A DNA stretch of 64,000 bases. It comes from Echinicola marina (GTDB lineage Bacteria > Bacteroidota > Bacteroidia > Cytophagales > Cyclobacteriaceae). Of this stretch, positions 7,861-27,452 are shown one piece after another (positions within the stretch are counted from its first letter, which is position 1; the number at the start of each line of letters is the position of its first letter). Position numbers and translations under genes: made by a program. Under the pieces are notes generated by a model. That model worked only from the letters and a program-made list of their open reading frames with translations. It did no database searches and was not told where the DNA came from. Location: positions 5,349,001 to 5,413,000 of the forward strand of contig NZ_CP080025.1 of assembly GCF_020463795.1 (NCBI RefSeq), given 5' to 3'.

Positions 7861-9060
7861 TTACATTTTCTTGTCCAAACTTAACCCTGTTTCGATATGC
7901 TCAAATTCAGGAATATATTTTTTTAACCAACCAACAATGTCAGTTTTCTGTGTTTCATTCTTATCAAGCAAATTATAAAGTTCATCGAAAATCTCATCAA
8001 ACTTCTCAATTGGATAGGTAGGCTCCTTACTGATCTTACCTAATGCTTGAAACTTATTCAAATCATACGATTCTTCTTCTGTGTAGAACTCCTCATAAAG
8101 CTTTTCCCCAGAAGTATCTGTTTTAAATACATACACCGGATATTTACCTTGATCTATTAAGTGTACATTTTTTCTAGCTTCCTCATCTGAATCAAAAATT
8201 ACAGGTTCAAAACCTAGTTTTTTTAATAATGGAGGGAAAATATCAGCAAATTTGATTAGATCCTTCTCCATATCTAACTTAGGGAAAAACACTTCTTTAT
8301 TATTGCCTAGAACACAAGCCATCAAACAGATCTCTCCTGATTCTTGAGGAGAAACAAAAAATCTTTTAACATCACTAGGACAGGAAATGGGTTGATTTTT
8401 CTCTATCCTTTTCAAAAACCCTTCCAAAAGAGACCCATTAGAAAAAGCCACATTGGCAAATCTTGCTGTAGATACTTTTAATCTATCCCCATAGGATAAA
8501 ATCAGTTCCTCCATCATTTTCTTGCTAGCCCCCATAATATTTACCGGATTGGCAGCCTTATCTGTCGATACACAAAAGAAATGTTTTGGAGGATGTTCAA
8601 CTAAAAGATCCAATAAACCTTTTGCCTTAACTAAATTATTTTCCAACAGCGCCTCTATTGAGAAAATATCTTTTTCGCTTCTCACATGTTTATGAGCTGC
8701 AAAATTGGCTACTATATCAAAAGGCCCATGAGCTCTGAAAAGTTTTCTAAAAGCGGGGCTATCAAACGATAATGGGTATGAATAAAACTCATCAGGAACA
8801 TATTGCCCTTCCACACTTCTTAGGTCCCTCACCAATTCTGTCAGCCCATTCTCATTAATATCAACTACTACTAGTTTAGCAGGAAGATACTTTAAGGCAG
8901 CTTTTATAAAAGAGGAACCAATTGTACCAGCTCCACCAATAACCATTAAATATTTCCCTTCAATATTCGATGACAGCTCGTCATGATTATTCTTCAAGTC
9001 CTGTTCAAAAAGGCTCTCTTTTCTTTGCAAATAATTTAATATAAATTTGTTAGTATCCAT
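7861..9060 (-). CDS. NDP-sugar 4,6-dehydratase/epimerase (CapD/FlaA1-like, short form)
   Basis: A 399-residue extended SDR protein. The Rossmann motif GGAGTIGSS lies near residue 41, followed by VDINENGL, the NFAAHKHV block and STDKAANPVNIMGASKKMMEE. In this last block the usual Tyr of the YxxxK dyad is replaced by Met, as in FlaA1/CapE/PglF-type UDP-GlcNAc 4,6-dehydratases. It lacks the N-terminal membrane region of the long WbpM/CapD forms. It lies 4 bp before the sugar transferase and 4 bp after the reductase gene, so the trio should be co-expressed. The likely job is a UDP-4-keto-6-deoxy-HexNAc intermediate. Confidence 0.85.
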   Translation of the reverse strand: MDTNKFILNYLQRKESLFEQDLKNNHDELSSNIEGKYLMVIGGAGTIGSSFIKAALKYLPAKLVVVDINENGLTELVRDLRSVEGQYVPDEFYSYPLSFDSPAFRKLFRAHGPFDIVANFAAHKHVRSEKDIFSIEALLENNLVKAKGLLDLLVEHPPKHFFCVSTDKAANPVNIMGASKKMMEELILSYGDRLKVSTARFANVAFSNGSLLEGFLKRIEKNQPISCPSDVKRFFVSPQESGEICLMACVLGNNKEVFFPKLDMEKDLIKFADIFPPLLKKLGFEPVIFDSDEEARKNVHLIDQGKYPVYVFKTDTSGEKLYEEFYTEEESYDLNKFQALGKISKEPTYPIEKFDEIFDELYNLLDKNETQKTDIVGWLKKYIPEFEHIETGLSLDKKM

Positions 9061-11888: not shown

Positions 11889-13028
11889 CTATTTACTTAA
11901 AAACTCTGATAATCTATATATTTTCTCCTTTTTCTTAAAAAAGAAATAGGATCTGTCCTCTAATTCTTTTATTAGGGTTTCATTTGATACATCATCAATT
12001 ACAACTTTACTCCCCATACTCCAACCTTGAATTAGTACTGTGGAATACTGTGCAATTATATACTCATTTTCACATAATATCTCAGAAATGTCTTTACCTT
12101 CACTCTCCAAGATCGAAACTCCTTTCAATTTATTCGAACAAACTTTCTGACGTGGGTGATCTTTTACTTTAACAAAATATCCTTTTCTGGTTATGTTTGA
12201 TAAAACTTCATTAATTATTCTGAGTTCTTCTGGACTTTCAATACCTTTTAAAAAATAACAAACTGAATTCTTACTTTTAAATTTTTTCTTTTTATTTCCG
12301 CATATAGAAAATGGATTATCTATTATTATTTCGCCTTTAAACATTAATTCTTCAAACATACCCTTATAATGTAGATCCCAAACATAGAATTTATCGAAAG
12401 AACAAAACGCATCCCTCAAAGTTAATAATTTCTCACCATGCATAAAGTTATTAAGTTCTATACATTCATGATGGCAAAAATCTCTCACAATGCCGCAAGA
12501 AGCACTATACTCCATGTTTACCCATACACTCTTTACATTATAGGCTTCTATTGCATATCTTATTTGAGCTATTCTGTATACAGATATAGCCAATAGGCCA
12601 AAATTAAACTGAGTCTTTACTAAAACACCCAAAAGATACACTATATCTCTAAACAACAATTCTCCTTTTCTTGGCTCGATGTAAACTAATCTTTTGCCTT
12701 TAACAAGCTCATTACTGAATATGGTTTTTGAGTAAAAATAAGCTATGTCATATGTATTCTTTTCTTTTATTGATTTCTTTGGAAAAAAATTCTTTAAAAG
12801 AAGGATAAAAAATCCAAACATGGAAACGATCCAAAGAATGATCTTATCGGTATTTTTTAAAAAGTAAACCTGTGCCTTGAATTGGAAAATACTATCATAT
12901 ATATAACTATCATCGAAATTTTTACGCTGGAGGGAAAGTTCTTTGAGTATTTTTTCTTCTTCCTCCCATGTCACACCCCAATTAATTGAAATTATTTTTT
13001 GTTTTATTAATTTATAATATTTTAACAT
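11889..13028 (-). CDS. Unidentified polysaccharide-locus protein, possible GT-B glycosyltransferase
   Basis: A 379-residue AT-rich gene; I do not recognise the family. The preceding codon is GTG, but ATG at 13028 is preferred. Near residues 70-90 there is a hydrophobic stretch (IILWIVSMFGFFILLLKNFF), odd for a soluble enzyme. Visible motifs: FMHGEKLLTLRD, VKVKDHPRQK and AQYSTVLIQGWSMGSK. HG, K-x-HP and a downstream Ser/Thr pair recall the HP and S(S/T) motifs of bacterial CMP-sialate transferases and of CDP-glycerol transferases. The locus makes an activated nonulosonic acid and has only one other obvious glycosyltransferase, so a role in transferring that sugar is a reasonable guess, not shown. 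Confidence 0.5.
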   Translation of the reverse strand: MLKYYKLIKQKIISINWGVTWEEEEKILKELSLQRKNFDDSYIYDSIFQFKAQVYFLKNTDKIILWIVSMFGFFILLLKNFFPKKSIKEKNTYDIAYFYSKTIFSNELVKGKRLVYIEPRKGELLFRDIVYLLGVLVKTQFNFGLLAISVYRIAQIRYAIEAYNVKSVWVNMEYSASCGIVRDFCHHECIELNNFMHGEKLLTLRDAFCSFDKFYVWDLHYKGMFEELMFKGEIIIDNPFSICGNKKKKFKSKNSVCYFLKGIESPEELRIINEVLSNITRKGYFVKVKDHPRQKVCSNKLKGVSILESEGKDISEILCENEYIIAQYSTVLIQGWSMGSKVVIDDVSNETLIKELEDRSYFFFKKKEKIYRLSEFLSK

Positions 13029-13119
13029 CACTTCTATTCAAAAGGCTTTATTCACCAAGTCAATAACTTATTGTTTTTCTTAATTTCATTAATAAAAAAT
13101 AATATTGGAATATTATTAA

Positions 13120-15764: not shown

Positions 15765-17033
15765 CTAATTAAAATTGGAGTTACTACTTAACCTTATTGT
15801 AACCCATTCTTGTTCTTTTTGGTTGTAATATAAACGGGGATATACAATAATAATTTCCTTTGTCACCCTGTCTTCTATTATTGTAACATGTCCCAAATCC
15901 AATCTATTCTTTCCTTCATCATATTTTCTATAAGTATCAAGTATTAAAACACTTGATTTAATAATTTTCATGGAGCTTTGGTCAACTTCTCCAATTACTA
16001 GAGGAAATCGTGGATGATTACCTTTAGGGTTCTCCTCAGAAATATTTCCAACCCAATACAATTTTCCATTTGAATGCTTAAATAAAACAGACATTGAAGA
16101 AGGAGAATAAAAAGTTGAACCATCATCATAAGTCCATGGCCTTGGTTTTGTCCAATTTTTACCATTATCTCTCGAAAAAGAATACCATTTATATCCCGGT
16201 AACGTATAATTGGAATCTAATTTCCCTCCATTACTTCCCCTAAACACCCCAAATATATTTCCATTATTTAATTTTATAATGGAAGGTTCAATTAACCCTC
16301 TTGTTGTAGAATTTGGATCACCTATTATTCTTTCTACTAGTTTCCAAACTAATTTTTTGCCTTTCCATTTCCCACGAAGAATAATAACTTCTGTATAAGT
16401 ATATCCCTTGGTCGGATTATATAATCCTTCCCAATTAAGGCTGTCACATTTACTATCAGAAATTACAGTAGCTTGTACAGGCAATAGAATATGCCCTTTA
16501 TTGTTAATTATTGGCTTACTCCCATAATCACCTAAGTAAAATGCATTTCTTCCTAATACTATGTTTGAAAATGGATTTGAGTTTGAGTTCTCATTTTTCT
16601 TAATTCGTATGTCGTAAAGCCAACTTTTACCATTGTCAGAAGAAGTTCTATATCGCAAATAATATCCTTTCAATGCTTCCTTCGGTTCCTTAACATGTTT
16701 AGGTATTTGGGGGTTATCTAATGAATTAAAAAAGGTAACTAATAATTGTTTATTACTATCAAAAATGGATGTAACTGGAGCCCTTCGCCCAGATTTGGGA
16801 GGAGTTTCTATCTCAACACTTGAAGTTGGACTATATTTCCACGTTTTTCCATTATCAACACTTATATAGTTTCCAGAACGCAGGAGGGGATTCTCAACTG
16901 ACGTGTATATTGCATTATAAAATCTTGATGGTTCTTTAGTTAATTTATATTCTAAGATTTCAATAGAACTTTGAGCCATGACCTGAATGGATATTCCCAA
17001 ACAGATGATGATATGTAAAATTCCCTTTCTCAT
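15765..17033 (-). CDS. Secreted Asp-box (BNR-repeat) protein of sialidase fold
   Basis: A 422-residue protein with a signal peptide (hydrophobic residues 5-19, cleavage after VMAQ). Three Asp-boxes are visible: SVDNGKTW (about residue 60), SSDNGKSW (about 130) and SRDNGKNW (about 290), each of the S-x-D-x-G-x-x-W type found in six-bladed sialidase propellers. I do not see the FRIP motif expected near the N-terminus of GH33 sialidases, so classical sialidase activity is doubtful. Lying directly downstream of a nonulosonic-acid module, it may bind, trim or modify the exported polymer (inference). AT-rich gene; separated by about 90 bp from the yhcH-like gene. Confidence 0.75.
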   Translation of the reverse strand: MRKGILHIIICLGISIQVMAQSSIEILEYKLTKEPSRFYNAIYTSVENPLLRSGNYISVDNGKTWKYSPTSSVEIETPPKSGRRAPVTSIFDSNKQLLVTFFNSLDNPQIPKHVKEPKEALKGYYLRYRTSSDNGKSWLYDIRIKKNENSNSNPFSNIVLGRNAFYLGDYGSKPIINNKGHILLPVQATVISDSKCDSLNWEGLYNPTKGYTYTEVIILRGKWKGKKLVWKLVERIIGDPNSTTRGLIEPSIIKLNNGNIFGVFRGSNGGKLDSNYTLPGYKWYSFSRDNGKNWTKPRPWTYDDGSTFYSPSSMSVLFKHSNGKLYWVGNISEENPKGNHPRFPLVIGEVDQSSMKIIKSSVLILDTYRKYDEGKNRLDLGHVTIIEDRVTKEIIIVYPRLYYNQKEQEWVTIRLSSNSNFN

Positions 17034-17124: not shown

Positions 17125-17553
17125 TTAAAGAAGCTTTTTATATACCTTCTTTTTTACTTCTAAACTATTATTAACAGCAATGCTTGTACGATGAACCTCA
17201 TGTGGAAATAAAATCAGAAAATACCCTGGGGACAAACGGATAGTTTGTTGCTCACGGCCTTCAAAAAGCTGGTAATCATCTTGGTACTCATTAGTTGGGA
17301 CCATTGATGCGATATCAGCTAGATGTATTAGCTCCTCACCTTCCAATATAACATGTATATCCAAATATTTTCTATGTGATTCCCAAAGAGCCCTATCGGA
17401 ATTTTGAGTTTGGTACACCAAACCTATACTAAAACAATCAGGTTCATTAATATCTTTCTTACCTTTTTCAAAGGATCCTCCATGTAGATCATCCAAAACA
17501 AATTGAAATCTCTCTCCATAATTTTTAAGGTTTTCGGTTTTGTCAAATATCAT
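17125..17553 (-). CDS. YhcH/NanQ (DUF386/EbgC-like) family protein, possible ulosonic-acid anomerase
   Basis: A 142-residue cupin-like protein of the YhcH/YjgK/YiaL family. The signature ESHRKYLDIHVILEGEE and the downstream FLILFPHEVHRTSIAV with C-terminal KKKVYKK are clear. E. coli YhcH (NanQ), encoded with sialic-acid catabolic genes, is reported to speed sialic-acid anomerisation. Here the gene is coupled by a 4-bp overlap (17550-17553) to the cytidylyltransferase, placing it in a biosynthetic rather than catabolic setting. It may supply the anomer needed for CMP activation or transfer (inference). Confidence 0.85.
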   Translation of the reverse strand: MIFDKTENLKNYGERFQFVLDDLHGGSFEKGKKDINEPDCFSIGLVYQTQNSDRALWESHRKYLDIHVILEGEELIHLADIASMVPTNEYQDDYQLFEGREQQTIRLSPGYFLILFPHEVHRTSIAVNNSLEVKKKVYKKLL

Positions 17554-18350
17554 GATAAATAAATCTCTTTTTTAATATCCAAAATTTTCTTTTTGTTTTC
17601 TTTATAAAACGAATTTACCCTTGAAACCACTTCAGGATCCAATGATGCTTGTTGTTTTTTGCTATTTATTTCTAAAGTACTTGGATTATTATCAAGATAT
17701 TCCAGCACGCTCAATAGTGATGGCAATGATTTATAAGGGAATGCATGGAAAATTTTTGACATCATTCTATAATCTTCAGGAAAATCATTGGTCAGTCTCA
17801 TACTAGGCCTGTACAAGAAGTCCTCTACCTGTATTTTCCCTATGCTAAAAATTTCAGGTTGATTGAATAAAATTCCCCAAATCTCCGTATCTATTTCTGT
17901 TTTTATTTTACATACCAGCTCCAATGCCTTCACTTTTATCCCATATACAGCAGCCCCAACAGGAGCTCCATCCACAGTAGAAAAATCATGATTTTCTCTT
18001 TTCATCATATCAACCATTCGATTAGCTATATCTATTGAAAAAAGAGGGTTTTCGCCGGTAATACTCAATATATAATCTAAACCAAAATAACGAGATGATT
18101 GAAACAACCTTTCCAAAACATCTTGCTCAGACCCTAAAAAGTAATGAATACCATTTTCAATAGCTACATCCGTCAGCGGTTTATCCTGAGGATTATTGGA
18201 CGTACATAGAACAATTTCATCTATTCCCTTAATTTTCTGAGACCTTTTGATCACATGTTCAATTATGGAGAATCCGTTTAAATCTTTTAATAGCTTAAAT
18301 GGAAGTCTTGTTGACTTCATTCTAGCTGTAATAAATAAGCCTATTCTCAT
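17550..18350 (-). CDS. Cytidylyltransferase (SpsF-like)
   Basis: A 266-residue protein of the CMP-sugar synthetase family. N-terminal FITARMKSTRLPFKLLKDL corresponds to the nucleotide-binding loop (usually ARxGSxRLPGK), then CTSNNPQDKPL, GSEQDVLERLF and ITGENPLFSID. These match SpsF-like enzymes rather than NeuA proper. It should activate an ulosonic acid as a CMP-sugar. It overlaps its neighbours on both sides by 4 bp (divergent NeuB upstream, YhcH-like downstream). No other CMP-sugar synthetase is present, so it may serve one or both NeuB-type synthases. The Gly after RLP is replaced by Phe. Confidence 0.82.
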   Translation of the reverse strand: MRIGLFITARMKSTRLPFKLLKDLNGFSIIEHVIKRSQKIKGIDEIVLCTSNNPQDKPLTDVAIENGIHYFLGSEQDVLERLFQSSRYFGLDYILSITGENPLFSIDIANRMVDMMKRENHDFSTVDGAPVGAAVYGIKVKALELVCKIKTEIDTEIWGILFNQPEIFSIGKIQVEDFLYRPSMRLTNDFPEDYRMMSKIFHAFPYKSLPSLLSVLEYLDNNPSTLEINSKKQQASLDPEVVSRVNSFYKENKKKILDIKKEIYLS

Positions 18351-19411
18351 TTTCCGGTATTTTTAAACTGAGAAGTATCCGCTAAATTAAACTCAAAATT
18401 AACCTTTGAATAATCTATGATTTCGTCAGGATCAATATTCTTACTGACAGACAAGTTTAAAAGCTTTATTAGATCCTTTTGAAGGATGTTAGCGCTTTCC
18501 TTAGTCCGCTTAAACGCGATATTATCCCTAGTGATCTTTTCTCCTGATTTTATTGACACCCTTGCTACTGGGGCCTTTTTCATTGGACCGGTATTTCCAT
18601 ATTTCAATTCCGCTAAGGAATAATCTAAAGGCTTATCCCCTCCTAAAACCTGATGAAGCAATCCAGCTAGTTCTTTTACTTTCAGAATCTGTTTTAATGA
18701 AACAGCAGCCTGAGAATCAATCCTTTTTTCCCCAACCTTGGTGGTGAAATGTTTTTCAATTACAAAAGCTCCTTTCGTAAGTCCTAAAACACTTATCCAT
18801 TCGTTATTGACATCAGTGGGGTCAGTATGATCCGCATACCCCATAGGCAAGTCAAATAAATGACCAATCTTTTCAATTCTCTCCAAAAATATATCTGAAT
18901 AGGAAGTGGGATAATTTTGGAAGCCATGCATCAAAAACACATCTTTTTTCCCTCTTTCATTCAAATAATCCACCGCAAATTTTATTTCATCAATTGTTGA
19001 CCCTCCAATGCCTAAAATTACAGTATTATTAAAAGTCGCAGCCTTTTCCAAAAGAAAAATATCATTAAGCCCTGTAGCATGTATTTCTACAGCTTTCAAG
19101 GCTATATTGTTTTCCAACACCCAGTCTAATGATGAAACATCATTGCAGAGCAGAACAACATCGAGATTTTTTGATTTTGCATGGTCAATTGCCACATGCA
19201 TTTGTTCTTTACTAAGAGATATTTTTTCTATAATCGGAACACCCTCATGATCACTTACAAAATAATCATTGACATCAAATAATGCATGAAACTTAATGGC
19301 ATCTAAACCTACACGCCCAGCTTCATCAATTAACTCTAATAAAAAATTGATTTCTCCCTCATGATGAAACGCTGTTTCCCCAATAATATAAGGTCTTTTA
19401 ATCTCTTTCAT
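18347..19411 (-). CDS. Divergent NeuB-family protein (TIM barrel + SAF domain)
   Basis: A 354-residue homologue of N-acetylneuraminate/legionaminate synthases: TIM barrel (about 1-270) then an SAF antifreeze-like domain (about 285-345). Retained features are Glu in IGETAFHHEG, Lys in IKFHALF and the two metal-binding His in ADHTD and IEKHFT. By hand alignment with the normal paralogue at 21602, the motifs thought to bind PEP and the sugar are replaced: KIPSGE by EIHATG, STGMAT by GIGGST, HCNTEYP by HGFQNYP and YSDHT by YADHT. It starts 1 nt inside the stop of the PtmE-like gene and ends in a 4-bp overlap with the cytidylyltransferase. It may use different substrates or catalyse another step. 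Confidence 0.85.
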   Translation of the reverse strand: MKEIKRPYIIGETAFHHEGEINFLLELIDEAGRVGLDAIKFHALFDVNDYFVSDHEGVPIIEKISLSKEQMHVAIDHAKSKNLDVVLLCNDVSSLDWVLENNIALKAVEIHATGLNDIFLLEKAATFNNTVILGIGGSTIDEIKFAVDYLNERGKKDVFLMHGFQNYPTSYSDIFLERIEKIGHLFDLPMGYADHTDPTDVNNEWISVLGLTKGAFVIEKHFTTKVGEKRIDSQAAVSLKQILKVKELAGLLHQVLGGDKPLDYSLAELKYGNTGPMKKAPVARVSIKSGEKITRDNIAFKRTKESANILQKDLIKLLNLSVSKNIDPDEIIDYSKVNFEFNLADTSQFKNTGK

Positions 19412-20454
19412 TACAATTTCAAATGTTTAATATCCTCCTGTGCCTTTTTAAAGTCCTCATGCTTGCCGATATCCAACCAATACCCATTGATTGGAAAAGT
19501 AACCAGTTTACGATCCATGGCAAGAATTTTATCCATCAAATCGGTAATATCATAATAGTCACCTTTTGGGATCAGATCCAAAACACTTTTCTTAAATAAA
19601 TAAATTCCCGCATTTGAAAAATAGGTATAACGTGGCTTTTCCTTGAGAGAGTTGACCCTTTGTTCACCATCGGTTTCCAAAACGGCATAAGGCACATCCA
19701 CACTGTAACTAGTGGCAGCTACCGCCATATCCGCATCTGATGCCTTGAAGGTTTTATAAAAATCCAGAAAATCAATATTAGTAAGTAGATCACTATTCAT
19801 TACCAAAATATCCTCATGCTCTAGCTTGTCAGCCAAGTGTATAGAACCGATTGTCCCCATGGGTTCGGTTTCTTTTATGTATTTGATATTTAGCTTTTTT
19901 TCACATCCGCAACCAAAATATTCCTCTAATTGCTCTCCTAAATAGTTAATACTGAGATGAATATTTTTCACCCCAACTTTTGCCAACCTGTCTATATTAT
20001 GCTCGATTATGGGCTTGTCACCAACTTTCAGTAAAGGTTTAGGGGTTCTTTCGGTCAAAGGTCTTAACCTTTTTCCTTCCCCTCCAGCCATAATTACAGC
20101 ATCTACGGGAATAATGGTACTTCTTGTCCTAAAATTAAATACATCAACTATCCGGCCATCATAGCCTAAAATCGGAACGACCTTAAAGTTCTTTTTACTA
20201 TATTCCTCCAACTTATCCACCGCATTTTCCTCTTCCCTGATAAAGGCTGGATTTGGCTGAACGAATTGCAATATAGAATCTTCAAACCCCAAGCCTTTAA
20301 TAAATCCCCTACGCAAATCTCCATCCGTCAAGGACCCAATTAACCTTTCATTATCATCTGTTACAAAAAGAATAGCATCGGACGCCAGCAAATCCAATTT
20401 CTTCAAGGCTTCTCTTACGGGTAGGTCTTTATTTATTATGTGGCTTTTCATCAT
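19411..20454 (-). CDS. CBS-domain nucleotidyltransferase (PtmE-like)
   Basis: A 347-residue two-part protein. An N-terminal CBS pair (about residues 1-115, with LIGSLTDGDLRRG) precedes a GT-A nucleotidyltransferase domain starting at MAGGEGKRLRPLTERTPKPL, with MNSDLLTNID as the metal site. This architecture is that of Campylobacter PtmE, the glucosamine-1-phosphate guanylyltransferase that starts GDP-linked legionaminic-acid synthesis. Location between NeuC-like and NeuB-like genes supports that role. It is translationally coupled on both sides (4-bp ATGA overlap with the NeuC-like gene, 1-nt TAATG overlap with the next). Confidence 0.85.
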   Translation of the reverse strand: MMKSHIINKDLPVREALKKLDLLASDAILFVTDDNERLIGSLTDGDLRRGFIKGLGFEDSILQFVQPNPAFIREEENAVDKLEEYSKKNFKVVPILGYDGRIVDVFNFRTRSTIIPVDAVIMAGGEGKRLRPLTERTPKPLLKVGDKPIIEHNIDRLAKVGVKNIHLSINYLGEQLEEYFGCGCEKKLNIKYIKETEPMGTIGSIHLADKLEHEDILVMNSDLLTNIDFLDFYKTFKASDADMAVAATSYSVDVPYAVLETDGEQRVNSLKEKPRYTYFSNAGIYLFKKSVLDLIPKGDYYDITDLMDKILAMDRKLVTFPINGYWLDIGKHEDFKKAQEDIKHLKL

Positions 20455-21605
20455 ATAAAATTATAGAACCTTTTGGGTCCAAAGTTTGATAAATCGATTT
20501 CTTTTAACACTTCAACAATTTGAGCACTAGTATTCCCAGTACCATAGGGATTTTCTACCTCTCTGAACCTAACATTAAAATCGGGTTCTTGGGCTTTCTT
20601 TAGCAAGTCGTAGATTTCTTTGGTATCTGAACCGCAATTTAAAACACTGTCAGCTTGGATCCTACCTTTTTGTCTGTCACCAATATTAATGGTTGCTGTA
20701 CCTACTGAGGGTGCTTCTATAATGCCGCTGGAACTGTTCCCCACTACTGCATCAGCAATTTTCATCACTGATAAATACCTCAGTGAACCCAATGAATCAA
20801 ACAATGCTGACTTGTCCCCGTTTTGGCTTACAAAGTTCTCCATCATTTGATTAATAATCCGCCCGTTGGTATCTGCATTGGCTTTTGTAAAAATAAAGAA
20901 GCTATCCTCTAACTTGGTAAGGGCATCAAGTAGGTTTTCAAACTGCCGTTCCACACTTATTTCAGCTAATGTCTCCGGGTGAAAGGAGATCAGAAAGTTA
21001 TGCGGTTTGAATCGGATATTTAAGTTTTTCTCTAATTCTTCTTTGCTCCATAAGTCAAGGCTGACAATATTATCCAAGCCTATGGCCCCAACATTAAAAA
21101 CTCGGTCAGGCTGTTCTCCCATTTGGATGATACGATGCTTATAGCTTTCTGTCGAAGAAAAATGTAAATGGCTCATCTTAGTAATTGCATGTCGAATGGC
21201 ATCATCATAAGCACCCTCAGTAATTTCGCCCCCATGGATATGAGCGATTGGAATTTTAAAAATCAGGGCAGTTGAAGCCATGGCTAACATTTCATAACGA
21301 TCTCCGAGAATGACCAAAAGATCGGGTTCTAAATTCTTAAATGCCTCGGTGAACCCAAGCATCCCAAGGCCCATGGATTTGGTAATTCCCTCGGCTGTAT
21401 CGGAAGAAAGCAGCATTTCCACCTTATAGTCCACTTTGAGCCCCTCTTCTTCTATTTGCCTATAAGTGAGACCAAATTCCGGGGAAAGATGCGCGCCTGT
21501 CACAAGGATTTGAAGATTGAACTGCGGACAGGCTTTTAACCGGTTGATCAAAGGCTTCAGCAAACCGTACTCGGCGCGGGTTCCTGTGGCGACACAGATC
21601 TTCAT
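20451..21605 (-). CDS. NDP-N-acetylhexosamine 2-epimerase, hydrolysing (NeuC/LegG-like)
   Basis: A 384-residue GT-B-fold epimerase that removes NDP and inverts C2 to give ManNAc or a 2,4-diacetamido-6-deoxymannose. N-terminal CVATGTRAEYGLL, the LVILGDRYEMLA and AHIHGGEITEGAYDD blocks and GNSSSGIIEAP near residue 290 are the NeuC family signature. In C. jejuni LegG works on GDP-linked diacetamidobacillosamine, and the adjacent PtmE-like gene points to that branch. Overlaps of 4 bp at both ends show a tightly packed operon. Confidence 0.92.
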   Translation of the reverse strand: MKICVATGTRAEYGLLKPLINRLKACPQFNLQILVTGAHLSPEFGLTYRQIEEEGLKVDYKVEMLLSSDTAEGITKSMGLGMLGFTEAFKNLEPDLLVILGDRYEMLAMASTALIFKIPIAHIHGGEITEGAYDDAIRHAITKMSHLHFSSTESYKHRIIQMGEQPDRVFNVGAIGLDNIVSLDLWSKEELEKNLNIRFKPHNFLISFHPETLAEISVERQFENLLDALTKLEDSFFIFTKANADTNGRIINQMMENFVSQNGDKSALFDSLGSLRYLSVMKIADAVVGNSSSGIIEAPSVGTATINIGDRQKGRIQADSVLNCGSDTKEIYDLLKKAQEPDFNVRFREVENPYGTGNTSAQIVEVLKEIDLSNFGPKRFYNFI

Positions 21606-22618
21606 AGCTCTATCAGTTCGTCCTCTTGAAAATCCTTGGAAGCCTTTCTGCCAATCACTTCATCCCATAACATGGGAGAAAGGCCGGATCCAGGTCGTTT
21701 GGTAGTGATATTTTCTTCGGTCAACACTTCTCCTTTAGCGATATCCTTAGCCGCAACAATACTTTTCCTTGCGATAGATATATTTTTTTTCTCAGAATCA
21801 CTGGGCTCTTTCATGCCTGAGCCAGATAACGCTTCTTCAATATGCCTTATCCCTTGGACCATGGCTTTAAGTTCATCAGGCTCCAACGAAGCCCTATGAT
21901 CAGGCCCTTCCATTTGTTTATCCAAGGTAAAATGCTTTTCAATAACCTTTGCCCCCAATGCCACGGCCGCTATGGGCACTTCTATCCCCAAGGTATGATC
22001 AGAATAACCGATTTTCGTCTGCAATTCATTTTGAATATGCAACATGGCCTTTAAATTCACATCCTTCATGGGTGTAGGGTATTCGGTGTTACAATGAAGA
22101 ATAGTAATACTTTCTTTACTTGCACCATTATCCACAAAGACTTTAACTGCGGACTTAATTTCCTCTAGTGTGGCCATACCCGTTGATAGAATTACCCTAT
22201 CGAATAATTTAGCCGCCAGCCTTAGATATGGAAGATTAGTAAGTTCTCCTGAAGGAATTTTAACTAATTCCAAGCCTATATCTTTTAAGTATTGTAATGA
22301 CTCTAGGTCAAATGCTGTAGAAAAAAAATTGATCCCCTTGTCTTGACAATATTGAATCAAAAGATTATGATGGTCTTCTGAAAGCTCAAGATTACTGAGC
22401 ATCTGAAATTGGCTTTCGCTTTCCTTTTTGGTATTCTCTATTTGATATTTTGCTTTAGTGGCAAACTTTGAAACCATGCTTTTAGGTTTAAAAGTTTGAA
22501 ACTTAACATAATCAACTCCTGCAGCAACAGCTGCATCTACAAGTTTAAAGGCATTTTCAATATTACCATTATGGTTTACACCTGCCTCAGCGATGATAAT
22601 CACACTATTTTCTTTCAT
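21602..22618 (-). CDS. N-acetylneuraminate/legionaminic acid synthase (NeuB/LegI-like)
   Basis: A 338-residue PEP-dependent synthase condensing a 2-epimerised hexosamine with PEP. All family motifs are present: IIAEAGVNHNGN, VKFQTF, VKIPSGE, STGMAT, LHCNTEYPTP, GYSDHTLG, IEKHFTLDK and a C-terminal SAF domain with KRPGSGLSP. The frame extends to a TTG at 22639, but ATG 22618 matches the family N-terminus and is preferred; it then overlaps the acetyltransferase gene by 14 bp. It is the conventional member of the two NeuB-type proteins here and fits legionaminic-type synthesis with its neighbours. Confidence 0.94.
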   Translation of the reverse strand: MKENSVIIIAEAGVNHNGNIENAFKLVDAAVAAGVDYVKFQTFKPKSMVSKFATKAKYQIENTKKESESQFQMLSNLELSEDHHNLLIQYCQDKGINFFSTAFDLESLQYLKDIGLELVKIPSGELTNLPYLRLAAKLFDRVILSTGMATLEEIKSAVKVFVDNGASKESITILHCNTEYPTPMKDVNLKAMLHIQNELQTKIGYSDHTLGIEVPIAAVALGAKVIEKHFTLDKQMEGPDHRASLEPDELKAMVQGIRHIEEALSGSGMKEPSDSEKKNISIARKSIVAAKDIAKGEVLTEENITTKRPGSGLSPMLWDEVIGRKASKDFQEDELIEL

Positions 22619-23237
22619 AAATTTTTCCTGGGTTTCCAATTACAGTTGCATTATCCGGTATATCATTTATTACTACTGTCCCTGCCCCAACAATCACATT
22701 ACTCCCAATTTTCACTCCTTGCTTAACCACGGCATTCGCACCTATAAAACTCAAATCTCCCACATGTACTCCTCCTGTCAGAACAGCTCCAGGACCTATA
22801 TGAACAGCTTCCCCCAATCGAACTTCATGTTCTATAATACAACCAGTATTCAACAAACAATAATCTCCTATTGAAGCCAAGGGGTTTATGGCTACATTTT
22901 TAGATATAAAATTTCCACAACCGATTTCTATATGCTTAGATATTGAACTTTGAGGATGGATGACATTAGGGAGTTGCTTTTTACGCGAAATAACTCGCTC
23001 GGCTATTATCTTCCTTATCTTATTATTACCCACTCCCAATAAAAAAGCATAATCCACTTCCCATCCCTGAAAGTCATCCTTTTGGTCATCTCCAAGATAT
23101 TCTAAACCAAATGGGTTAGAGCTTTTTATTTCACTTTCACAATAATGTGTGATTTTCATTCCTGCCTCCATAGCCGCATCAACGACGACCAGACCATGAC
23201 CAGAGTAGCCTATTATTGCTATTTTATCTAACACCAC
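22605..23237 (-). CDS. NeuD/PglD-family sugar acetyltransferase (LegH-like role)
   Basis: A 210-residue protein with an N-terminal Rossmann-like sugar-binding part (IAIIGYSGHGLVVVDAA) and a C-terminal left-handed beta-helix (about residues 95-205) ending VIGNPGKIYERK, the PglD/NeuD layout. The catalytic His is probably in CIIEHEV. PglD/LegH acetylate the 4-amino group made by the preceding aminotransferase; here the LegC-like gene is directly upstream with a 14-bp overlap. Start is GTG (23237, or 23234). Confidence 0.88.
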   Translation of the reverse strand: MVLDKIAIIGYSGHGLVVVDAAMEAGMKITHYCESEIKSSNPFGLEYLGDDQKDDFQGWEVDYAFLLGVGNNKIRKIIAERVISRKKQLPNVIHPQSSISKHIEIGCGNFISKNVAINPLASIGDYCLLNTGCIIEHEVRLGEAVHIGPGAVLTGGVHVGDLSFIGANAVVKQGVKIGSNVIVGAGTVVINDIPDNATVIGNPGKIYERK

Positions 23238-24366
23238 TTGGTAAATTTACAATTCTTTCCTCCAAAAATTCAGCATTTATTTGTTCATCCCGCTGGCAAT
23301 GGGAATACATTGGTAATCGATACATTAACTGCCAAATAGGCCGTGTTAATATTTTCTTAGAATTTGTTTCTTTTAAAAATATCTCTTTATCCTTCATATT
23401 TTCCAGCTCCACACACATTAACCAATAGTTTGCTTTTGTATTTGGAAGTTCTTGTCTGAATTTTACGCCTTGAGTCCTAAAAAACTCGGTATAGAGTAAA
23501 GCTAACTCACGTTTGTTTTTCATTATGGATGGCAATTGCTCTAATTGAGCACAAGCTAATGCAGCATTTAGGTTTGGCATCCTAAAATTATAGCCGAGTT
23601 CATCATGCATAAATTCAAACGAATGGGGAACTTTAGCAGTGGTAGTCAAATGTTTAGCCTTCTTTCCAATCTCCAAATCATTGGTGACAATTGCTCCCCC
23701 ACCTCCACTAGTAACGATTTTATTGCCATTAAATGAAAAAGCACCAATTTGACCAAGACTTCCGGTCTTCTGTCCCTTATATTCACTTCCCAAGGATTCA
23801 GCGGCATCCTCCACAATTGGGATATTCCACTTTTCACATATCTCAATTAATTTATCCATATGAACAGGAAAGCCGAATGTGTGCATGGGTAAACAGGCTG
23901 AAATTTTCTTCCCTGTTTGTTTATTATAGCACCCATCTTCTCTCATCTCTCCATATTCATTCAAAAAAATTTCCACAGCGAACGGCGAAAGGCCCATAGT
24001 GTCCAAATCTACATCGATGAAAATTGGAGAGGCGTCATTATACGCGATTGCATTTACGGTGGCCACAAAGGTAAGCGCCTGGGTGATCACCTCATCTCCA
24101 GGTTTTACACCCACCAAGCGTAGGGCCACCTGTAGGGATGCCGTACCATTCACCACCGCCACAGCTTTCTTGGTGTTGGTCTGGGCCTGGACCATTTCCT
24201 CAAACCTATCCACATATTTGCCCACAGAAGATACAAAGGTAGAATCTATGGTATCCAAAAGGTATTTTTTCTCATTCCCCCTAAAAACAGGCTCATGCAA
24301 AGCAATTATCTCTTTTTCAGGATATTGTGTTTTCACTAAACTAATTAGCTCGCCAATATTTTTCAT
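23224..24366 (-). CDS. legC: LegC-family PLP aminotransferase (DegT/DnrJ/EryC1/StrS)
   Basis: A 380-residue sugar aminotransferase. The PLP-binding Lys is in GAFSFNGNKIVTSGGGGAIV (about residue 215) and the Asp-containing IVEDAAESLGS precedes it. The opening ALHEPVFRGNEKKYLLDTID and FVSSVGKYVDRFE match the LegC subgroup that aminates C4 of a 4-keto-6-deoxy-HexNAc. It opens the nonulosonic-acid block, followed without gaps by the acetyltransferase, synthase and epimerase. The 4,6-dehydratase LegB that should supply its substrate is not in this block. Confidence 0.9.
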   Translation of the reverse strand: MKNIGELISLVKTQYPEKEIIALHEPVFRGNEKKYLLDTIDSTFVSSVGKYVDRFEEMVQAQTNTKKAVAVVNGTASLQVALRLVGVKPGDEVITQALTFVATVNAIAYNDASPIFIDVDLDTMGLSPFAVEIFLNEYGEMREDGCYNKQTGKKISACLPMHTFGFPVHMDKLIEICEKWNIPIVEDAAESLGSEYKGQKTGSLGQIGAFSFNGNKIVTSGGGGAIVTNDLEIGKKAKHLTTTAKVPHSFEFMHDELGYNFRMPNLNAALACAQLEQLPSIMKNKRELALLYTEFFRTQGVKFRQELPNTKANYWLMCVELENMKDKEIFLKETNSKKILTRPIWQLMYRLPMYSHCQRDEQINAEFLEERIVNLPSGVR

Positions 24367-27071: not shown

Positions 27072-27452
27072 TCACTGTCTTTCATTTTGATTTCTCAAAT
27101 ATCGAATATATCCATTGATTAATTGAAGGCACTTTTCACAGTCTTTTCTAATTTGGGTTAAAATTGCATCATCGATATAATCCCAAGATTTGGCTTCCAA
27201 AGCATGATCTAAAATTTCAGCTACAGATCCCCGGGCATTCAATAAAAATTTAATATTTTCTTTAAAATGATACCTACCCCAGCCTTCTGCAATATTTGCC
27301 GTAGCTGATCTACTAGCCCTTAATAATTGACTGAACAATTCATATCGTTCATGCTTGGGCAATTTTGTCAATACTTCCTCTCTTATATACCACTTGAGTC
27401 CATCACATGCCTGCCAGCATTTCAATTCTTCAAATGATGTATAAGATCCCAT
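27072..27452 (-). CDS. Four-helix-bundle protein (S23/IVS family), copy 1
   Basis: A 126-residue protein of the small S23-type family first known from 23S rRNA intervening sequences and also seen as Avd in diversity-generating retroelements. Signature pieces are ELKCWQACDGLKWYIREEV, SQLLRASRSATANIAEGWGR and the ARGSVAEILDHALEA block. Function is unknown outside retroelements; no reverse transcriptase is nearby. It is inserted between the Wza-like and Wzz-like genes and bordered on both sides by degenerate repeat tracts. A second family member lies at 30425-30787. Confidence 0.85.
   Translation of the reverse strand: MGSYTSFEELKCWQACDGLKWYIREEVLTKLPKHERYELFSQLLRASRSATANIAEGWGRYHFKENIKFLLNARGSVAEILDHALEAKSWDYIDDAILTQIRKDCEKCLQLINGYIRYLRNQNERQ

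Follow-up and report, generated by a model that had tools for sequence, protein, structure and literature searches.

A divergent NeuB paralogue adjoining SpsF-like and YhcH-like genes in Echinicola marina: a possible step after nonulosonic acid synthesis

The 64,000-nt window analyzed here (positions 5,349,001-5,413,000 of Echinicola marina NZ_CP080025.1, assembly GCF_020463795.1; the source is a single contig of 5.69 Mb) contains a gene cluster for a sialic-acid-like (nonulosonic acid) sugar in which a canonical NeuB synthase, referred to here as NeuB1, is accompanied by a divergent NeuB-fold paralogue, NeuB2. The NeuB2 gene is followed by genes for an SpsF-like cytidylyltransferase and a DUF386/YhcH-like protein (Table 1). 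A preliminary description of this DNA had reported these three overlapping genes, and both the coordinates and the Pfam scores bear this out. It had also spoken of a fused order with overlaps of 1-4 bp: the overlaps are real (PtmE/NeuB2, 1 bp; NeuB2/SpsF, 4 bp; SpsF/YhcH, 4 bp; all on the minus strand), but the genes are separate rather than fused. Upstream of the trio lie LegC, NeuD, NeuB1 and NeuC, each above its family cut-off, and a PtmE-like gene.

Table 1. Genes of the NeuB2 cluster and other features of the window.
Feature	Position	Strand	Remarks
NeuB2	18347-19411	minus	354 aa; NeuB-fold paralogue, PEP region rebuilt
SpsF-like cytidylyltransferase	17550-18350	minus	266 aa; probable CMP-nonulosonate synthetase
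DUF386/YhcH-like protein	17125-17553	minus	142 aa; probable ring-opening anomerase
PtmE-like, CBS + nucleotidyltransferase	19411-20454	minus	named from domains and position only
NeuC/LegG	20451-21605	minus	TIGR03568, 495.6 bits (cut-off 235.9)
NeuB1/LegI, canonical synthase	21602-22639	minus	TIGR03569, 493.6 bits (cut-off 399.65)
NeuD/LegH-like acetyltransferase	22605-23237	minus	TIGR03570, 195.9 bits (cut-off 160.8)
LegC aminotransferase	23224-24366	minus	TIGR04181, 533.3 bits (cut-off 420)
BNR_2-match protein	15765-17033	minus	signal-like N-terminus; adjoins YhcH
Candidate nonulosonate transferase	11889-13031	minus	PF07388 (polysialyltransferase), 17.7 bits, under the cut-off of 23.3
FlaA1/CapD-like, candidate 4,6-dehydratase	7861-9060	minus	homology label only

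NeuB2 is a member of the synthase family, and its best family match is sialic acid synthase. It scores 113.8 bits against PF03102, above the Pfam gathering cut-off of 22.1, but stays under the equivalog cut-offs for N-acetylneuraminate synthase (TIGR03569; 141.8 bits vs 399.65) and pseudaminic acid synthase (TIGR03586; 98 bits vs 340.25). The NeuB fold is kept, because the AlphaFold model is confident (predicted local distance difference test score, pLDDT, 94.7) and NeuB 1xuu is the top Foldseek match, with the folds agreeing over almost the full length. The genome has three PF03102 matches: NeuB1, NeuB2 and a gene resembling DAHP (3-deoxy-D-arabino-heptulosonate 7-phosphate) synthase beside tryptophan genes. 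As the preliminary description had stated, the catalytic Glu and Lys and both metal His are retained; these are E12, K40, H195 and H221, equivalent to Glu25, Lys53, His215 and His236 of Neisseria meningitidis NeuB, and D232 is retained as well. We take Lys53, His236 and Asp247 to be functional residues of NeuB. The available text on the N. meningitidis enzyme lists Glu25, Thr110, Lys129, Asn184, Ser213, His215 and Arg314 among the residues of the catalytic site (PMC6795526).

The region around phosphoenolpyruvate (PEP) is different. The NeuB1 motifs KIPSGE, STGM, CNTEYP and GYSDH are replaced in NeuB2 by EIHATG, GIGG, GFQNYP and GYADH, with E109, H111, G134, G137, G163, F164, Q165, A193, R230 and Y271 as the rebuilt residues. 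A scan of 84,980 species genomes gave 127 relatives, of which the best 80 were kept; with the window, this makes 81 loci. The exchanges were scored in a MAFFT alignment, with N. meningitidis numbering, of 71 NeuB2 proteins and 68 NeuB1 proteins, the latter after dropping rows of <310 aa and the rows of loci L036, L038, L039 and L057. Left out of the 71 were L057 (a duplicate of L056), the fragments L062, L097 and L100, and six intermediate (MID) loci set apart on score and motif (L105, L112, L114, L118, L120, L121); counts over 81 loci include these ten. According to the available text of one study, positions 110, 129, 131, 132, 182 and 184 ring PEP in N. meningitidis NeuB, with 132, 182 and 184 rated less conserved (PMC7371886). 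At five of these six positions, every one of the 71 NeuB2 proteins carries a residue unlike any in the 68 NeuB1 proteins: T/S/A becomes L/M at 110, K becomes E (59) or D (12) at 129, P/A/G/S becomes H in all 71 at 131, and C/A becomes G at 182 and T/S/L becomes Q at 184, again in all 71, the loci having been picked by an ETA[FW]HH or GFQ-type pattern, so that the invariance of both motifs is partly chosen, with the other exchanged positions outside the patterns. At the sixth, 132, Ser is kept in 47 of 71, and the window protein has Ala.

Further exchanges are just as regular: S to G at 154 (67/71), M/L/Q/I to G at 157 (71/71), S in all 68 NeuB1 to A (68) or T (3) at 213, and G in 65 of 68 NeuB1 to R (69) or K (2) at 245, together with F (69) or Y (2) at 183 and Y at 285 in all 71. 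Unchanged are E25 (70/71, with one gap) and K53, D214, H215, E234, H236 and D247 (71/71 each). The exchanges occupy identical columns in the MAFFT alignment and in the HMMER-profile alignment to 1xuu, so they are not errors of alignment by hand, and neither alignment shows the same PEP site with displaced motifs, an outcome the preliminary description had named as one that would count against it. Its statement that the PEP and sugar motifs are lost is accurate as to change but not as to loss. Judged from its residues, the PEP region is rebuilt and not decayed, because the replacements are themselves conserved, and this also rules out a decaying gene copy.

A phylogenetic tree agrees with this separation. 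In a tree of 78 rows, made with a quick search, the 43 NeuB2 rows form one side of a branch with a Shimodaira-Hasegawa-like approximate likelihood ratio test (SH-aLRT) support of 99. The opposite side (SH-aLRT 95) holds all 22 NeuB1 rows, L172 and five solved enzymes: N. meningitidis NeuB, Campylobacter jejuni PseI, Bacillus subtilis SpsE, 6ncs and 3g8r. Thus, NeuB2 stands outside the known synthases, whereas a position among them was the other result that had been suggested as grounds for rejection. The six MID proteins have GFQ and Y285 like NeuB2 but retain G245, and four of the six also retain Lys129; SpsF is present in all six MID loci. Two GFQ-type NeuB proteins in these loci (L121:9001-10032, L120:9001-10032), from Legionella moravica and an uncultured gammaproteobacterium, have Lys53 and Lys129 exchanged as well and represent a further remodelled branch. 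Locus L171 has one GFQ-like NeuB with Lys129 retained, plus SpsF, with a contig end close by.

The partner proteins point to sugar activation and ring opening. The SpsF-like protein scores 70.3 bits against PF02348 (CTP_transf_3; cut-off 22.6), and Foldseek places its model closest to 6oew, followed by synthetases of the cytidine monophosphate (CMP) derivatives of Kdo, Kdn and sialate. It is not KdsB (38.3 bits vs 155.2 for the kdsB equivalog), and a KdsB-like protein is found elsewhere in the genome. On these family and fold matches, the SpsF-like protein is probably a CMP-nonulosonate synthetase. The genome has two CTP_transf_3 matches, the SpsF-like protein and a 246-aa protein that is KdsB-like on score and motif. 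The NeuA profile matches the place of the latter alone, weakly, and no cytidylyltransferase of the NeuA/LegF type was found in the genome; hence, the NeuB/NeuC/PtmE set ahead of the trio, whose genes are all present, is not complete as had been claimed. Similarly, a NeuA-type synthetase of >200 bits was not found in 18 of 20 NeuB2 genomes, this one included. This makes SpsF the sole candidate activator of the NeuB1-derived sugar in most NeuB2 genomes. Replacement of NeuA by SpsF has been noted previously in the available parts of two papers (PMC7371886; PMC7439481). Among four further NeuB2 genomes of the window's family, no NeuA was found in G120 and G188, the extra match in G188 being an SpsF of another type. 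The NeuC of G120 is split into two frames (L037:11155-12266, minus strand), being either broken or affected by a sequencing error, in an otherwise whole cassette.

The YhcH-like protein scores 100.8 bits against PF04074 (cut-off 26.5) and 84.5 bits against the broader TIGR00022 (cut-off 45.5), but is below the sialate anomerase equivalog NF040884 (74.7 bits vs 160). Residues E58, H60, D65, D93, H121 and K135 do not vary among the 39 aligned relatives, and all of these except K135 are putative metal-type residues. The protein is probably a ring-opening anomerase. Escherichia coli YhcH, according to the available text, provides an aldolase with sialate in its open form (PMC8141875).

Is the association of NeuB2 with these partners specific? 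SpsF is present in 78 of the 81 loci, and the other three loci end right at NeuB2. An SpsF-like gene is present on the fetched stretch at 70 of the 71 aligned loci; in 62 of these 70 it overlaps NeuB2 or lies within 10 bp of it, in the order NeuB2-SpsF or SpsF-NeuB2. Adjacency and co-occurrence therefore rule out a chance pairing. Of the 71 loci, 59 also have a PtmE-like gene. NeuA appears in 7 of 81 loci, among them three MID loci and L096, where it is a 22-bit match. Without L057 and the MID loci (n = 74), the counts are 71 for SpsF, 36 for YhcH and 4 for NeuA (one at 22 bits only). As controls, 26 NeuB clusters without NeuB2 were taken from 23 of 24 genomes (G167 was omitted because its contig was too short). 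YhcH occurs in 37 of the 81 NeuB2/MID loci vs 0 of the 26 controls (Fisher p 2.6e-6), a comparison in which the control clusters are confined to the window's family, with short contigs among them and L171 GFQ-like, and the NeuB2 loci span many phyla; YhcH was not found in any control cluster even at an E-value of 10. NeuA is the sole cytidylyltransferase type in 20 of 26 controls, and one more has a NeuA at 62 bits beside SpsF. SpsF is found in 4 of 26, at 108-185 bits vs at least 278 bits for most NeuB2 partners, and neither type is found in 2 of 26. Whole-genome searches of 34 NeuB2 or MID genomes found a canonical NeuB in 30; the remaining four are metagenome or single-cell assemblies with the cassette at a contig end.

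There are two types of cassette. In type A, the NeuB1 motif is KxxSGE-like, NeuC is usually present, and the order is NeuB2-SpsF. Type B (25 loci) has the order SpsF-NeuB2, and NeuC was not found on the fetched stretch; the NeuB1 motif, readable in 22 loci, is KxASMD in 20 and KxASF[DE] in 2, and a glycosyltransferase family 2 (GT2)-like protein precedes NeuB1 in 10 of 11 listed loci (L095:6283-7119 by Pfam, nine by eye). NeuB2 position 314 follows this division: it is R in 46 loci and M/L/V in all 25 type B loci (L061 set aside). The match would be expected if NeuB1 and NeuB2 met one and the same sugar. In one locus from the phylum of L073, a GFQ-type NeuB and SpsF form a natural 585-aa fusion beside NeuA (L205:724-2481, minus strand). 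In a Pelagibacteraceae single cell, SpsF runs on into a long segment that, by eye, looks like a capsule-type glycosyltransferase, without a Pfam match (L067:1038-3371, plus strand).

The NeuB2 cassette is rare and spread over several phyla. With the genome at the center of each search included, the window's phylum has NeuB2 in 5 of 395 genomes, its family in 6 of 196 (our own reading of the search results) and its genus in 1 of 11, where three others match at the canonical level only. Other searches gave 2 of 391 genomes for the class of L115, 4 of 297 for the phylum of L073 (one being the intermediate fusion) and 3 of 152 for the family of L107 (Ferrimonas). One of the two matches in an order-level search of 197 genomes, G774, proved to be a canonical NeuB. 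The scatter over phyla suggests horizontal spread. NeuB2 was not found on phages or plasmids, in two viral scans with few degenerate patterns and one plasmid search.

What might NeuB2 do? The gene organization, the company of canonical NeuB, the lack of a detected NeuA in most NeuB2 genomes searched, and the exchange of PEP positions amid otherwise conserved residues would fit a module that works after the synthase. NeuB1 would condense PEP with the NeuC product to give a legionaminic-type nonulosonic acid, as its family suggests, and the YhcH-like protein would open the sugar ring, by analogy with E. coli YhcH. NeuB2 would then act, metal-dependent but without PEP, on the open-chain sugar, because the metal ligands and Glu25 are kept while the PEP region is not, a ring opener is adjacent and a synthase lies upstream. 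The chemistry of the NeuB family sits at C3-C4, the bond that NeuB makes; reversible cleavage and re-formation of this bond, giving a C4 epimer, would be the reaction most in keeping with the fold. Finally, the SpsF-like protein would make the CMP-sugar in NeuA's place. Both the catalytic activity of NeuB2 and its reaction and PEP independence are what we infer, and we hold only tentatively that NeuB2 reworks the open-chain product of NeuB1, perhaps inverting C4, before SpsF activates it. The preliminary description had proposed either a modified reaction on the legionaminic-type product or a dedicated path to an unusual ulosonic acid. The former fits best. A separate parallel route fits less well, since a canonical NeuB turned up in 30 of the 34 genomes and 18 of 20 lack a NeuA, which leaves the SpsF beside NeuB2 as the sole candidate to activate the NeuB1-derived sugar there.

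The narrower proposal is that NeuB2 is a C4-epimerase, i.e., a PEP-free reversible aldolase derived from the synthase fold, which with YhcH and SpsF yields sugars of the 4-epilegionaminic or fusaminic acid type. This is possible but unlikely as it stands. By the prefix rules, neuraminic (Neu), legionaminic (Leg), 8-epilegionaminic (8eLeg), pseudaminic (Pse), acinetaminic (Aci) and 8-epiacinetaminic (8eAci) acids share the same C4 side, and among the sugars compared only 4-epilegionaminic acid (4eLeg; D-talo) and fusaminic acid (L-gluco) have the opposite one. Fusobacterium nucleatum 25586 makes fusaminic acid, and the FN locus tags are presumably those of this strain. In the available text on F. 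nucleatum ssp. nucleatum, FN1684 is NeuB, FN1686 is "NeuB and CTP transferase 3," and no obvious neuC is present (PMC4045943). Fusaminic acid is described as differing from Pse at C4 and in the C7 group (PMC9912281, available text), and 4eLeg as known from Shewanella japonica KMM 3601 (PMC3210612, available text). For the Acinetobacter sugars, the accessible part of one paper proposes a different route, with epimerization after CMP-Leg via other genes (PMC5595891).

Several observations weigh against this interpretation. First, YhcH was unseen in more than half of the loci, and the NeuA and YhcH profiles were built from the loci of this analysis. Second, NeuA is not always missing. It is present at over 80 bits in 6 of 81 loci; in G211 and G221, the NeuA-positive pair among the 20 genomes, it lies ~12 kb from NeuB2 on a contig shared with a further NeuB; and G127 and G170, from the four further family genomes, carry genes of the NeuA type, at 165 and 185 bits, on contigs other than that of NeuB2. 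The G170 gene adjoins another NeuB, and G170 also has a 60-bit match ~8.6 kb from NeuB2. In three of the six MID loci and in L205, NeuA and SpsF occur together, with the appearance of two parallel activations. Third, R230 (R in 69 and K in 2 of the 71 proteins) may provide a novel phosphate contact, so that PEP could still be used. Fourth, plain co-inheritance of linked genes may also explain the pattern at position 314. Fifth, the configuration of fusaminic acid is tentative, the NeuB part of FN1686 is known by its published domain description alone, and the coincidence of a C4-inverted sugar with a NeuB-cytidylyltransferase fusion is a correlation in one strain, and so suggestive only.

Some of these points would suit a NeuB2 that is itself a PEP-dependent synthase, its phosphate site remodelled, and that works with SpsF toward a second, different CMP-nonulosonic acid, starting either from a different aldose or from the opposite face of the same aldose. 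The nearly full-length NeuB fold and the retained Glu25, Lys53 and metal ligands are as expected for a synthase, the nearly invariant R230 and the invariant H111 could bind phosphate, and half of the MID loci have NeuB1 and NeuA beside MID and SpsF, like parallel pairs. However, five of the six PEP-surrounding positions are exchanged throughout, with Lys129 turned acidic; no isolate without canonical NeuB was found among the 34 genomes searched; 18 of 20 genomes would be left without a dedicated activator for what NeuB1 makes; and YhcH would have no evident task. A second synthase is therefore rather improbable. Less probable again is some other action of NeuB2 on the NeuB1 product or on the precursor of that product: isomerization or epimerization at another carbon, dehydration or removal of off-path sugar. 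The same co-occurrence evidence applies here as for the proposed post-synthase step, and the new residues E/D109 and H111, present in 71 of 71, are of the acid/base type, but nothing points to one particular carbon, and NeuB chemistry sits at C3-C4. The least likely alternative by a clear distance is a non-catalytic NeuB2 that acts as a scaffold or regulator of SpsF: the gene overlap, the natural fusion and the changed active site would fit, but the metal ligands, Glu25, Lys53 and Asp247 are kept in essentially all 71 proteins across bacteria and archaea, and the B. subtilis CMP-Leg path, in the part of the source available, pairs SpsF with SpsE as its single NeuB-type enzyme (PMC7439481). In Plesiomonas, PtmF is encoded between PtmE and LegF, and NeuB2 was also considered as its stand-in; this was dropped, as PtmF is listed as an oxidoreductase.

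The NeuB2 trio sits in a GC-poor part of the window, with 27-34% GC at 8-20 kb vs about 38-43% in the rest. The NeuB1 open reading frame (ORF) is listed from TTG, and the true start may be slightly further in. FlaA1/CapD-like homologues precede LegC in many other loci; in the window, the two are ~15 kb apart. A BNR-repeat protein beside YhcH also occurs in L052 and L058, which is unusual for a polysaccharide-making locus. By eye, an ORF between capsule export genes (window 27072-27452) resembles a four-helix bundle, and so does another ORF of this genome, located among its clustered tryptophan genes (L041:3263-3658).

What are the implications of such a module? NeuB sequences have been used to infer which sugar a genome makes (PMC7371886 and PMC7591256, available text), and a conserved NeuB2 subfamily with SpsF, and often YhcH, would make such NeuB-based calls wrong. 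The NeuB2-SpsF cassette predicts a modified sugar that is activated without NeuA. If NeuB2 reworks a finished sugar, rare variants of sialic-acid-like sugars could be explained. No enzyme for C4 inversion of nonulosonic acids was found in the literature searched, and NeuB2 is a concrete candidate for the origin of C4-inverted forms. Nor did that search, which mostly excluded subscription literature, find a description of the NeuB2 subfamily in the texts available.

How does this locus compare with known systems? With the NeuB/LegI/PseI/SpsE synthases (PF03102), NeuB2 shares the fold, Glu25, Lys53, both metal His and Asp247; it differs in its PEP positions, its separate clade, its company of a canonical NeuB and its missed equivalog cut-offs. 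E. coli YhcH/NanQ and the window protein share the DUF386 family, with E58, H60 and H121 invariant among the relatives of the latter, but the window protein is below the equivalog cut-off and belongs to a biosynthetic rather than a catabolic operon. The Campylobacter path (LegB, C, H, G, I and F plus PtmE) has counterparts here in LegC, the NeuD/LegH-like protein, NeuC/LegG, NeuB/LegI and the PtmE-like protein; however, its NeuA-type LegF was not found, and NeuB2-SpsF occupies its place. In B. subtilis, SpsF is likewise a putative cytidylyltransferase replacing NeuA after a legionaminate synthase; that path, in the description available, has SpsE as its single NeuB-type gene and does not mention NeuB2 or YhcH, and complementation of spsF failed (PMC7439481). 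The F. nucleatum neu operon (FN1682-FN1686) likewise combines a NeuB with a NeuB/CTP_transf_3 protein and, in the text available, no obvious neuC (PMC4045943), but FN1686 carries in one protein the two domains that are encoded in the window by separate, overlapping genes.

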